The position numbers and the translations under genes are program-made. Below, one piece after another: positions 45,364-49,219 of a stretch of 64,000 nt of DNA. The first letter of the stretch is position 1. Every line of letters starts with the position of its first letter. The stretch is from Limobrevibacterium gyesilva (GTDB lineage Bacteria > Pseudomonadota > Alphaproteobacteria > Acetobacterales > Acetobacteraceae): the NCBI RefSeq assembly GCF_025989185.1, contig NZ_JAPDNT010000001.1:124001-188000 (forward strand), read 5' to 3'. A model generated the notes under the pieces. The model made no database searches, was not told where the DNA came from, and saw only the letters and a list, made by a program, of their open reading frames with translations.

Positions 45364-46002
45364 TCAGGCGGCATACCCCGCCGTCGGGCTTGACGCGCCA
45401 TGTTGCGCGCGCAGCCGGAAGGCGAGCACAAGCAGTATGATGCCGAACACGATTGCATAGCCGCCAAGCCACCAGGTGAGCACGATCGCCCCGCTCAGCG
45501 GAGCGATAACGAGCACGACCCCCCACAGGATCGAGACGATGCCACCAAGGGCGAGCCACCAGCGCCCATGACTCACATGCAGCCGGAAAGCGGCACCCAG
45601 CATCAACCCTCCGGTCAACAACGCCCAGGCAGCCGTCACCAGCACGAAGGCGAGCACCGCGGAGGCGGGGAAGAAAGCGGCAATCAGGCCCACGACGAGA
45701 TTGAGGATCCCTTCGAGCAGGAGCAGCCCCCAGCGTTCATGGCTGCGTGCCGACCGCACCGCCGCAACGATGCTGAATATGCCGTCGACAAGCAGATACG
45801 CCGCGAACAGCAGCGCCAGCGAAAGCATGACGGCGCCCGGCACGAACAAGGCGACAAGGCCAAAGAGAATCGCCACGACACCGCGCAGGGCAATCGCCCA
45901 CCAGTTGCCCGCCAGTTGGGCACTCATCACGTCGGAACTGGCGGCGTCCGGGCTTGCCTGAGGTGGCGTTGTCGTGCCGCCCGAGGATGTGTCTGAACCC
46001 AT
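45364..46002 (-). CDS. HdeD-family membrane protein
   Basis: A 212-residue protein with a 35-residue hydrophilic Ser/Thr/Pro-rich N tail and six membrane helices in HdeD/DUF308 repeats (GNWWAIALRGVVAILFGL; later HERWGLLLLEGILNLVVGL and WWLALGGIVSILWGVVL). HdeD proteins support survival in acid and at high cell density; one copy is part of heat-resistance islands. ATG 46002 has AAGGTGGAG upstream; GTG 46014 is a weaker alternative. Last gene of the clpK-hsp20-hdeD set. Confidence 0.85.
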   Translation of the reverse strand: MGSDTSSGGTTTPPQASPDAASSDVMSAQLAGNWWAIALRGVVAILFGLVALFVPGAVMLSLALLFAAYLLVDGIFSIVAAVRSARSHERWGLLLLEGILNLVVGLIAAFFPASAVLAFVLVTAAWALLTGGLMLGAAFRLHVSHGRWWLALGGIVSILWGVVLVIAPLSGAIVLTWWLGGYAIVFGIILLVLAFRLRAQHGASSPTAGYAA

Positions 46003-46026
46003 GTCGTTCTCCACCTTGTTCTGTGC

Positions 46027-46228
46027 TTAAGGATGCGCGCCGCAGACGCGTTCGGTGAAATGCGTGCTCTCGCGCTCCTCCCTGCACTCGGGCTTCTTCT
46101 CGGCGCGGATGGTGAGAACGTCGTCGTCCAATGATGTGTCGATGTCCTTCTCTGCCACATCAGGCAACGAGGCGATGATGCGGCCCCCCCCCCCGCGCGA
46201 TGTTGTCTCCACGATCGACCAGGGTCAT
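46027..46228 (-). pseudogene. hsp20 (small heat-shock protein) remnant
   Basis: Only the middle of an alpha-crystallin domain survives: SLPDVAEKDIDTSLDDD, VLTIRAEKK and HFTERVCGA are clear Hsp20 matches, but the N-terminal region and the last beta strands with the I-x-I tail are gone; a stop follows HP. The upstream part runs through a run of 11 Gs on the coding strand (46184-46194). An ATG at 46228 opens a frame that would join the Hsp20 frame if the tract had 10 Gs. A GTG at 46212 opens the present frame. It lies 25 bases after the clpK stop. Confidence 0.72.
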
Positions 46229-46253
46229 CACCGGGTCTCTCTCGGCCCGGCTG

Positions 46254-49055
46254 CTACTCGGCCGCGGCCGCGGTTTCCTTTCCGGGCTTGCGCGGCTTCT
46301 TGACGGGCGCTGCGGGAGCCTCCGCCTGGCCCGCGGGCTTCGCCTTCGCCTCGAAGGCCACCTTGTGCCGGCTCTCATCCCAGTGCGCCACAACGTGGTC
46401 TCCCTCGTGCACCTCGCCGCCGAGCATGGCGCGCGCGAGCTGTGTCTCCAGCTCCGAGCGGATCAGGCGACGCAACTCCCGTGCCCCGTACTCCGGCTGG
46501 AAGCCTGCCTCGGCGAAATGCTCCAGCAGGGCGTCGTCGATCTCCAGCACAAGCCCCTGGCCGTGCGCGGTCCGCTTCACGCGTTCAAGCTGCAGCCGAA
46601 CGATGTTGCGGATCTGCTCGCGGCCAAGCGTGTGGAAGACGATGATGTCGTCGATCCGGTTGATGAATTCCGGCCGGAAATGGCCGCGCAGAACGTCCAT
46701 CACCTCGCGCTTGAGCTCGGCCTCGTCGGCCTCTCCTTCACGCAACGCGCGTTGGATGATGTGGGACCCCAGGTTACTGGTGGCGATCAGGATGGTGTTG
46801 GTGAAGTCCACGACGCGGCCCTTGCCGTCGGTCAGCCGGCCATCATCGAACACCTGCAGCAGGATATTGTAGACATCCGGATGGGCCTTCTCGATCTCGT
46901 CGAGCAGCACCACTGAATAGGGGCGGCGGCGCACCCGCTCGGTGAGTTGTCCGCCCTCCTCGTAGCCGACATAGCCCGGCGGGGCGCCGATCAGCCGCGC
47001 GACCGCATGGCGCTCCATGTACTCGCTCATGTCGATGCGAATCATCGCTTCTTCGTCGCCGAACACCGTCTCGGCCAGCGCCTTGGCCAGCTCGGTCTTG
47101 CCGACGCCGGTCGGACCCAGGAACAGAAAAGTCGCCACCGGCCGGCGTCCCTCGCGCAATCCGGCCCGTGCGAGGCGCACCGCGTCGCTGACCGCGCGGA
47201 CCGCTTCGTCCTGTCCGACGACGCGCTCGTGCAACCGTTCCTCCAGCTTGGTCAGCCGCTCGCGCTCCTCGGTGGTCAGTTCGGTCACGGGAATCCCCGT
47301 GAGCTTGGAGACGATCTGCGCGATGTGCTCGCTCTTGACCTCGGCGCTGGCGGAGCCACGCTCGCGCCGCCAGCGCTCTGTCGCCTCCTGCAGCGCCTTG
47401 CTGCGGTCGGCGTGGCGTGCCTGCGCCTCAGCAGCGCGGTCGAACTGCTTGCGCGACGTCGCATAGTCCTGTTCGCGCTTCAGTTGGCGAACCTCCGCCT
47501 CCAGCTCCTGCAGCTCGGGCGGCCGGGCGGTGCTGCTGATCTTCACCCGCGCCGCCGCCTGGTCGATCAGGTCGATCGCCTTGTCGGGCAGGAAGCGGCC
47601 GGTGACGTAGCGGTCGGAGAGCTCGGCCGCGGCGACGATCGCTTCGTTGGTGATCGTCACCTTGTGGTGCGATTCGAATGTATCGCGCAGGCCGCGGAGG
47701 ATCATGATCGTCTGCTCAACCGTCGGCTCCGGCACGAAGACAGGCTGGAAGCGCCGCTCCAGCGCCGCGTCCTTCTCGATATGCTTCTGGTATTCGTTCA
47801 GCGTGGTGGCGCCGATCAGGTTCAACTCGCCGCGCGCCAGTGCCGGTTTGAAGACGTTGGCGACATCGAGCCCACCCTCTCCGCCGCCCTGGCCGGCTCC
47901 GACGATGGTGTGGATCTCATCGATGAACAGCACCAGCTCATCCTGGTGCGCGCTGACTTCCTGCAGGAGTTGTTGGACCCGCTCCTCGAACTCGCCGCGA
48001 TACTTCGAACCGGCCACCATGGAATTGACGTTCAATTCCACCAGGCGTTTGCCACGCAAGGATTCCGGAACCTCGCCGGCGACGATCCGCTGCGCCAGGC
48101 CTTCGACGATCGCCGTCTTGCCCACGCCCGGCTCGCCGATCAGCACGGGGTTGTTCTTCTTGCGCCGCGCCAGCACCTCGATCGTGGTCTCGATCTCGCG
48201 GGCGCGCCCGATCACCGGATCGAGCTTCCCGTCACGGGCAAGGGCGGTGAGGTCGCGCGCATATTTGTCGAGGTTTGGCGTGTTGGTCGGGCGTTCGACC
48301 CGGCCCTCCTCCGCGCCGCGCCCGACCACCTTGACGATCTGCTGGCGCAGCGCCTGGGGCGTCAGGCCGTAGCGGCGCAGCACCTCGCCGGCGATACCTT
48401 CGTCTTCCTCGGCCAGGCCGATCAGCAGGTGCTCGGGTCCGACATAGCTGTGGCCCAACTCGCGCGACGCCGCGATGGCACGCCCCAGAACGTCCTTGAG
48501 GCGTGGCGAGACACCGATCTCGCCGCCGCCTTCCTTTTCCTTTGCCCGGTCGCCGCGCGGGCTCTCGCGTTCCAGCTGCGCACGCAGGTCATCGGCTGAC
48601 AGCTTGAACTGCTCCAGCACGGTACGGACGACATCGCTGCCGGTAAGGGCGTGCAGCAGATGCTCCGTGTCCACCTCGTGCCGGCCGAATTCGGTGGCAG
48701 TCTGCGCAGCCTCCTGCAGCAACTGCCTGGCGTGCTCGCTGAGGATGTCCTCCGCGCCGGAGGGTGTGCCCCGGCCGCGCTTCGTCCCGCGTCCGGCGTT
48801 GACCGGGATCCGGCGCCCGGCGGGCTCGCCTGTTTCGGACGTGCCCTCATCCCAGAGCGAATCGTCAAAGAACTCGTCGAACGGACTGCTCCGGCCGCCG
48901 AACAGGGATTCCAGCGGCGAATTGAATCTTTGCTGTCTGGCGAGACGCCGATAGTCGATTTCGCACAGATCAAGTGTCTGTCTCTTGTCACCCGACACAA
49001 CGGTCGCACGCACGGTAGCAGGTCGAATGCCGCAGATATCGCACAGCTTCGCCAT
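46254..49055 (-). CDS. clpK: ClpK/ClpG-type AAA+ disaggregase
   Basis: A 933-residue Hsp100 protein. The N-terminal extension has a zinc-like site Cys5-x2-Cys8, Cys31 with Asp34 (usual His), then a linker rich in SPLESLFGG-type sequence, a Clp-N domain (about 100-240), AAA1 with GEPGVGKTA, a short ClpC-like middle domain, and AAA2 with GPTGVGKTE and IGAPPGYVGYEEGG. The region between SNLGS and FRPEFINR has no I/L-G-F/L tripeptide, so it probably does not dock ClpP and acts alone as a disaggregase. The extension and length match ClpK/ClpG of heat-resistance islands. The Lys/Ala-rich tail is low complexity. Confidence 0.85.
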   Translation of the reverse strand: MAKLCDICGIRPATVRATVVSGDKRQTLDLCEIDYRRLARQQRFNSPLESLFGGRSSPFDEFFDDSLWDEGTSETGEPAGRRIPVNAGRGTKRGRGTPSGAEDILSEHARQLLQEAAQTATEFGRHEVDTEHLLHALTGSDVVRTVLEQFKLSADDLRAQLERESPRGDRAKEKEGGGEIGVSPRLKDVLGRAIAASRELGHSYVGPEHLLIGLAEEDEGIAGEVLRRYGLTPQALRQQIVKVVGRGAEEGRVERPTNTPNLDKYARDLTALARDGKLDPVIGRAREIETTIEVLARRKKNNPVLIGEPGVGKTAIVEGLAQRIVAGEVPESLRGKRLVELNVNSMVAGSKYRGEFEERVQQLLQEVSAHQDELVLFIDEIHTIVGAGQGGGEGGLDVANVFKPALARGELNLIGATTLNEYQKHIEKDAALERRFQPVFVPEPTVEQTIMILRGLRDTFESHHKVTITNEAIVAAAELSDRYVTGRFLPDKAIDLIDQAAARVKISSTARPPELQELEAEVRQLKREQDYATSRKQFDRAAEAQARHADRSKALQEATERWRRERGSASAEVKSEHIAQIVSKLTGIPVTELTTEERERLTKLEERLHERVVGQDEAVRAVSDAVRLARAGLREGRRPVATFLFLGPTGVGKTELAKALAETVFGDEEAMIRIDMSEYMERHAVARLIGAPPGYVGYEEGGQLTERVRRRPYSVVLLDEIEKAHPDVYNILLQVFDDGRLTDGKGRVVDFTNTILIATSNLGSHIIQRALREGEADEAELKREVMDVLRGHFRPEFINRIDDIIVFHTLGREQIRNIVRLQLERVKRTAHGQGLVLEIDDALLEHFAEAGFQPEYGARELRRLIRSELETQLARAMLGGEVHEGDHVVAHWDESRHKVAFEAKAKPAGQAEAPAAPVKKPRKPGKETAAAAE

Positions 49056-49190
49056 GACAGCCTCCAGCGCCTCAGCCTCGGAACAGGCTCAAGCATTCGG
49101 GCAAGCTTCCGTCAGGAGATCGATCGCTCGTCTTCCAGGGTGCGCGACGAGTCTCTCGCGCGACCATGCGCGCGCTTTACTTGGTCAGGG

Positions 49191-49219
49191 AAGCTAGGCT
49201 TGGCGGTCGATCGAGTCAA
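49191..49219 (-). promoter_or_regulatory. clpK promoter candidate
   Basis: Minus-strand TTGACT (49214-49219), 17-base spacer and TAGCTT (49191-49196). The -35 box is preceded by C, giving CTTGAC, which also fits the first half of alphaproteobacterial heat-shock (RpoH) promoters. It is 136 bases upstream of the clpK ATG, leaving a long leader. The rest of 49056-49349 shows nothing else. Confidence 0.45.

Follow-up and report, generated by a model that had tools for sequence, protein, structure and literature searches.

The 64,000-nucleotide stretch of DNA analysed here, referred to as the window (Limobrevibacterium gyesilva, family Acetobacteraceae, contig NZ_JAPDNT010000001.1, positions 124,001 to 188,000), carries on its minus strand, in succession, an intact gene for a ClpK/ClpG-class AAA+ disaggregase (clpK), a fragment of a small heat-shock gene (hsp20) and an intact gene for a DUF308/HdeD membrane protein (hdeD). 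The reading that we consider reasonably probable is that these genes form a compact clpK-hdeD stress-tolerance unit, belonging to a branch outside the ftsH-linked branch of the transmissible locus of stress tolerance (tLST), and that the unit was trimmed later.

The ClpK protein and its relatives

The clpK gene (46254-49055, minus strand) begins with an ATG and has 933 open codons with no internal stop. Its product matches the Pfam domains Clp_N, AAA (AAA1), AAA lid, AAA_2 (AAA2) and ClpB_D2-small, and it has the ClpK plan of an N1 zinc domain, Clp_N repeats, AAA1, a short M domain, AAA2 and a C-terminal extension. Among the NCBIfam models it scores highest on ClpK (1509 bits), followed by ClpG (1374 bits) and ClpB (1008 bits), with the ClpA model also outscored; all these scores are below the strict cut-offs, that of ClpK (NF033606) being 1900 bits. 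When nine relatives are compared, the E. coli plasmid ClpK alone passes NF033606 (2146 bits), and the ClpK proteins of the genomes G003 and G271 and of Microvirga, Limimaricola, Agrobacterium and Deinococcus behave like the window protein, scoring highest on the ClpK model and below its strict cut-off. In the motif alignment, for which the residue identities of the Walker, pore, sensor and ClpP-loop motifs are those that we take to be correct, the Walker A/B motifs, the pore tyrosines, the sensors and the arginines are intact, and the ClpP-docking [IVL]GF loop, present in the ClpC rows and in the row of the genome's own ClpA, is absent. Separate ClpB and ClpA genes, each above its NCBIfam cut-off, are found elsewhere in the host genome.

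For the phylogenetic comparison 53 Clp proteins were extracted, including that of the window, and 44 of these were used in the tree; the nine kept out (L014, L015, L018, L024, L034, L040, L076, L077 and L088) are ClpB/ClpC-like or truncated, three loci (L006, L055 and L066) gave no extract, and the genome G1159 is outside the tree and the neighbourhood counts. The identity of the genome's own ClpB and ClpA was checked, and the other ClpB and ClpC labels were assigned by eye. The 33 ClpK/ClpG rows group together (100/100), apart from the ClpB, ClpC and ClpA rows. Within this group the window protein clusters with the ClpK proteins encoded in three other genomes from its family, G003, G083 (row G083a) and G271 (100/99), and the Microvirga terrae plasmid ClpK joins this clade (89/76). 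The sister is a clade of 22 rows (98/99), which includes the ClpK of the E. coli tLST together with ClpK proteins from Alphaproteobacteria, and the window clade lies outside it; the Deinococcus plasmid protein and core-type ClpG are further out. This is in agreement with the preliminary description of the locus, which had proposed a clpK-type disaggregase related to the ClpK of heat-resistance islands and had pointed to a phylogeny against ClpB, ClpC and ClpA as the check. Judged from its sequence, the window protein is of the ClpK/ClpG class and is not a ClpB, ClpC or ClpA.

ClpK has a patchy distribution of the sort expected for transferred genes. With a threshold of E 1e-290, and with the window genome included in each count, it is found in 16 of the 397 family genomes searched, in 17 of 395 genomes of the order (16 of them being those of the family), in 3 of 385 genomes of the class and in 6 of 398 genomes of the phylum; in the genus of G003 it is present in 2 of 15 genomes. 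A search of 72,556 plasmid records at 1e-150 gives 1391 matches, of which 1105 are from Klebsiella and 71 are below 60% identity, with other Clp proteins among the latter. The matches listed in the search of genome contigs are mainly ClpC- and ClpB-like, and those that are ClpG-like over most of their length are L012, L013 and L014 (63-67%).

The N1 domain of the window protein differs from that of ClpG. According to one study, the zinc ligands of ClpG N1 are C6, C9, C31 and H34, the C6A/H34A variant is inactive and the H34A variant alone is described as largely active, whereas aggregates are bound via V17 and L21, for which V17E and L21E were tested (PMC10641755). As Q21 occurs in some ClpG proteins (same source), V17/L21 is better regarded as indicative than as a firm requirement. 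In the window protein C5, C8 and C31 are retained, the putative fourth ligand is D34 in place of H34, and positions 17 and 21 are alanine and serine, instead of the hydrophobic V17/L21. The three cysteines are kept in 32 of the 33 ClpK/ClpG rows, and position 34 is histidine in 23, aspartate in nine (the window included) and glutamate in one. The A17/S21 pair occurs in six of the 33 rows: the window, G003, G083a and Microvirga, and also Limimaricola and Shinella of the sister clade, so that the pair also occurs beyond the window clade. The window N1 probably still folds around zinc, with its aggregate-facing strand changed. In the G271 ClpK (L109, G271:C6, 438-3299, plus strand), which is 78% identical to that of the window, all three N1 cysteines are lost and the gene is otherwise open. 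These natural N1 variants (A17/S21/D34, and the cysteine-free G271 protein) are ready-made tests of the residues needed for aggregate binding.

The hsp20 fragment, hdeD and the neighbourhoods of the relatives

The gap between clpK and hdeD is just 239 bp, too short for an intact hsp20. What is found there by profile match and tblastn is a remnant (46027-46212, minus strand) of about 45 residues of the alpha-crystallin core, with both ends missing. The PF00011 match covers positions 11-49 of 102 (14.6 bits, E 0.12, cut-off 20.8), no Pfam family is found in the 61-residue open reading frame (ORF) at E 0.001, and there is a weak NCBIfam Hsp14 match (E 7e-4); when the window is searched by tblastn, reference Hsp20 proteins align at the remnant with a best E of 1.5e-8. 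The 5' part of the fragment includes an 11-G run (46184-46194, minus strand), the sole homopolymer of at least eight in the window, and it is possible that this is an assembly or slippage site. The linked hsp20 is dead, as had been noted before, and the three other Hsp20 matches above the cut-off in the host genome may be stand-ins.

The hdeD gene (45364-46014, minus strand, 216 residues), whose linkage to clpK was also part of the preliminary description, is intact. DUF308 is matched in three stretches (99.2 bits, E 1.6e-28), and the NCBIfam HdeD match is weak (27.6 bits). In the HdeD tree the window protein groups with those of G003 and G083a (99/99) and then with that of Deinococcus (100/99), and the two other DUF308 proteins of the host genome are apart from it (100/99, with long branches); by this sequence comparison the window HdeD is not a copy of them. 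Since HdeD tracks the same relatives as ClpK, clpK and hdeD seem to have moved together.

The ClpK loci were searched by tblastn with reference tLST-type proteins. In the window, 51 such proteins (E 1e-3) match only at the places of clpK, hsp20 and hdeD, and psiE has no match anywhere in the 64 kb. Within the stretches read, 21 sister-clade loci out of 22 (all except Shinella) have ftsH, two of them as a remnant (L112 and L136), and it is not found in any of the five window-clade loci, in the one Deinococcus locus or in the five core-type ClpG loci (G816, G1069, G1061, L012 and L013). In the five window-clade loci there is also no match for yfdX, trx or kefB. Among the 16 other ClpK loci of the family that were read, two of which (L118 and L119) reach the contig end soon after clpK, hsp20 is found in 13, hdeD in five and a psiE match in all 16. 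psiE is beside clpK in G003, G083 and G271, and beside clpG in two of the five core-type loci (G1061 and L012).

In G003 the order is hsp20-clpK-hdeD; the clpK and hdeD reading frames share four bases, and psiE lies on the opposite strand. This locus (L105, G003:C17) is on a 13.3-kb plasmid-like contig with MobA/MobL, RepA and PRC-barrel genes, the ends of which do not overlap. At the end of its clpK ORF (L105, 9128-9196, plus strand), just before hdeD, the last 23 matched residues of an NDUFS4-like protein are found in frame (78% identity). This tail seems to have been joined to clpK by a deletion, and at least one gene was thus lost there. The G083 contig, which also has RepA and a relaxase-type helicase (the relaxase domain itself being outside the stretch read), carries in this order hsp20, IS21-type istA/istB, clpK, an NDUFS4/ETC-complex-I-like gene and hdeD; its hsp20 is the ORF 10366-10968 (minus strand) of L108 (G083:C62). 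The istA/istB insertion between hsp20 and clpK (L108, 7991-10218) likely cuts the operon. In the Deinococcus locus hsp20 (matched in two pieces), clpK and a DUF308 gene are adjacent, with DegP- and Usp-like genes near, and in the Microvirga locus there is no hdeD or hsp20 match. In the latter (Microvirga terrae plasmid pR24_1, L128, 8336-11829) a Dps-type DNA protection gene immediately precedes clpK, the product of which has 79% identity to the window protein. The conserved order clpK-hsp20-hdeD, proposed in the preliminary description, is not seen in these relatives: hsp20 is upstream of clpK in G003 and G083, and most of the other family loci have no hdeD match.

With the E. coli tLST the window locus shares the ClpK class (69% amino acid identity to the plasmid ClpK), a linked HdeD (36%) and a trace of hsp20. 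It differs in having no match for ftsH, cls, yfdX, trx or kefB, a broken hsp20 and no mobile gene among its identified neighbours. In a survey, the tLST is characterised by DNA conservation of >80% and a GC content of ~61% (PMC8290217), whereas the window clpK DNA is 75% identical to E. coli clpK over a main block of 2.3 kb and has a GC content of 66.6%. The tLST core dna-hsp20-clpG is also not found as such, as hsp20 is a fragment downstream of clpK (the dna gene was not searched for). By the strict definition, the window locus does not qualify as a tLST.

Alphaproteobacterial tLST-like clusters, namely those on plasmids of Agrobacterium, Limimaricola and Roseomonas and the groups ClpG2GI, ClpH and undefined of the survey (PMC8290217), share with the window clade the plasmid location and an hdeD downstream of clpK. 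The three named plasmids differ from it in that clpK immediately follows ftsH and is accompanied by three hsp20 genes. G003, G083 and the Deinococcus wulumuqiensis plasmid resemble the window in having clpK with hsp20 and hdeD and no ftsH; unlike in the window, hsp20 is upstream of clpK, plasmid genes are nearby and, in G003 and G083, psiE is present. The closest HdeD proteins are those of G003 and G083, and the closest ClpK proteins are those of G003, G083 and Microvirga. Core-type ClpG (Pseudomonas L012, Paraburkholderia L013 and their kin) has the same domain plan and is of the same autonomous disaggregase class, but its identity is 63-67%, it is outside the 28-row ClpK group, L012 and L013 score higher on the ClpG than on the ClpK model, and no hsp20 or hdeD match is found in the five loci read. 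The survey notes alphaproteobacteria that have mostly the protein-homeostasis part (PMC8290217). The kind of locus is thus already known; an ftsH-less clade found on plasmid-like contigs, the N1 residues of this clade and a copy with a dead hsp20, as in the window, are not met with in those parts of the literature that were accessible.

Origin and predicted action of the unit

The missing ftsH fits an early branching, because the window clade is outside the ftsH-linked clade and no ftsH is found in its five loci or in Deinococcus; this lineage may never have had ftsH, yfdX, trx and kefB. Later trimming is also visible, in the hsp20 stump, the absence of psiE and the missing counterpart of the NDUFS4-like gene of G083. 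The two options of the preliminary description, an ancestral minimal form or a relic of transfer, are therefore each borne out in part, the first by the early branching without ftsH and the second by the losses. The window copy was probably trimmed from an ancestor that had hsp20, psiE, clpK, the NDUFS4-like gene and hdeD, in a branch that appears to travel on plasmids in the relatives; we infer this direction of change from one tree and five clade members. The survey cited above states that the data available so far do not suffice for a reliable conclusion on the origin of the heat-resistance island (PMC8290217), and a clade branching outside the ftsH-linked form provides a testable hypothesis for an earlier stage of it. 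A bolder proposal, which we make tentatively, is that the tLST had its ancestral form in the small ftsH-less plasmid-borne unit (clpK, hdeD, hsp20, psiE and the NDUFS4-like gene), that this unit still moves within the family, that ftsH, yfdX, trx and kefB were added in another lineage, and that most of the clade has a re-tuned N1 (A17, S21 and the aspartate ligand), G271 being without the zinc cysteines.

By homology to ClpG biochemistry, the window ClpK is likely an autonomous, ClpP-independent disaggregase, and we infer the following mode of action. The co-directional clpK and hdeD are probably transcribed together from a promoter-like site (CTTGAC-N17-CCTAGCT, 49192-49220, minus strand) about 165 bp ahead of the clpK start, where the spacing was judged by eye and the consensus is assumed. 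The ClpK ring would bind heat-made aggregates directly via its zinc-holding N1 and, hydrolysing ATP, would thread them through the tyrosine-lined pore for refolding, without DnaK and, because the ClpP-docking loop is absent, without ClpP. HdeD would be a putative membrane partner that may protect the envelope. HdeD-GI is listed with periplasmic chaperones in the survey, according to which a function at low pH is not supported by the data (PMC8290217).

Several observations weigh against the compact unit as proposed. Its co-transcription and heat induction are predictions; the promoter-like motif ahead of the window clpK also fits a housekeeping sigma factor, and no counterpart of it is found at up to 400 bp from clpK in the remaining four loci of the clade. 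As hdeD is not found in the G271 and Microvirga loci, two of the five of the clade, the clpK-hdeD pair is not obligate; G271 is readable for just 437 bp upstream of clpK, and Microvirga (89/76) belongs to the clade less firmly. The A17/S21 residues could make the activity weaker or different. The G+C content at third codon positions is ordinary for clpK (0.843, compared with a mean of 0.855 and a standard deviation of 0.057 for 33 mechanically picked window ORFs) and lowish for hdeD (0.779), so that composition neither shows nor excludes a recent arrival; the upstream neighbour is also lower (0.78). Finally, when an empty site was looked for in eight of the nine further genomes (out of 120 searched) that have this 647-residue upstream neighbour (G092 was left out), none of the eight loci held the flanking set of the window, and the insertion site could therefore not be defined.

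It is also conceivable, but unlikely, that the locus is the relic of a full tLST-like island that lost ftsH, several hsp20 genes, yfdX, trx and kefB, all but clpK and hdeD. Loss is demonstrable in the clade, as the window has an hsp20 stump and no psiE (present in 16 of 16 other family loci) and G003 has the NDUFS4-like fusion, and the similarity of the hsp20 fragment to the tLST-type Hsp20 proteins of 163-169 residues is roughly equal to that to any other. This does not agree with the position of the clade outside the 22-row clade (98/99), in which 21 loci have ftsH, with the lack of ftsH, yfdX, trx and kefB matches in all five clade loci, or with the 51 tLST-type references matching the window at three places only. 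That hsp20-clpK-hdeD is instead a minimal core from the outset, and that this lineage never had a larger set, was first favoured, as these genes are adjacent in G003 and Deinococcus. It became distinctly improbable when the psiE and NDUFS4-like matches were tabulated: the NDUFS4-like gene lies between clpK and hdeD in G083 and its last residues are fused to clpK in G003, psiE is by clpK in three genomes of the clade and even in two of five core-type ClpG loci, and in Deinococcus DegP- and Usp-like genes are part of the locus as well. Slightly less probable again is a failing remnant, in which clpK is still open and no longer matters. The dead hsp20, the A17/S21/D34 residues and the cysteine-free sister G271 are consistent with this, whereas 933 open codons, the retained catalytic motifs and the 78-79% identity to relatives are not; furthermore, A17/S21 recurs in five and D34 in eight other rows of the 33, so that they are not fresh decay. 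An ordinary chromosomal ClpB, ClpC or ClpA with unrelated neighbours, to which the score below the strict NCBIfam ClpK cut-off (1509 against 1900 bits) might point, can be set aside in view of the tree separation (100/100), the N1 zinc domain, the short M domain, the absent ClpP loop and the genome's own ClpB and ClpA being other genes.

Leader and flanking genes

With one mismatch allowed, a similar promoter-like pattern occurs once in the window, ahead of clpK, and it is also ahead of clpK in two loci outside the window clade (L106 and L139). The consensus CTTG-N17/18-CYTANNT, which we take to be that of heat-shock promoters, is found 18 times in the host genome and 72 times for the reversed control, and is thus rarer than the control. 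Its occurrences include sites ahead of clpK and of one hsp20 (contig C15) and, by eye, ahead of a grpE-like gene and also of housekeeping-looking genes. Folding of the clpK leader is ordinary (z 0.25), and no Rfam family, such as would indicate an RNA thermometer, is found there.

The window copy is on an 827-kb contig with ordinary genes around it. Among 14 neighbouring ORFs scanned, 10 have Pfam matches, none of which is to a mobile gene, and four are without a match; no notable direct repeats bracket the module. The downstream neighbour (43909-45189, plus strand), a convergent 5-aminolevulinate synthase gene by NCBIfam, is not part of the module, and the upstream gene (49350-51293, minus strand), which encodes a membrane protein without a Pfam or NCBIfam family that is glycosyltransferase-like by eye only, is probably outside it. 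Two of the eight loci read for this upstream gene each have one weak match (27% and 36% identity) to a protein encoded in the flanks of the module, and these were taken as paralogues. The span given in the preliminary description ended at 49219, close to the promoter-like site, and the clpK start itself is at 49055.

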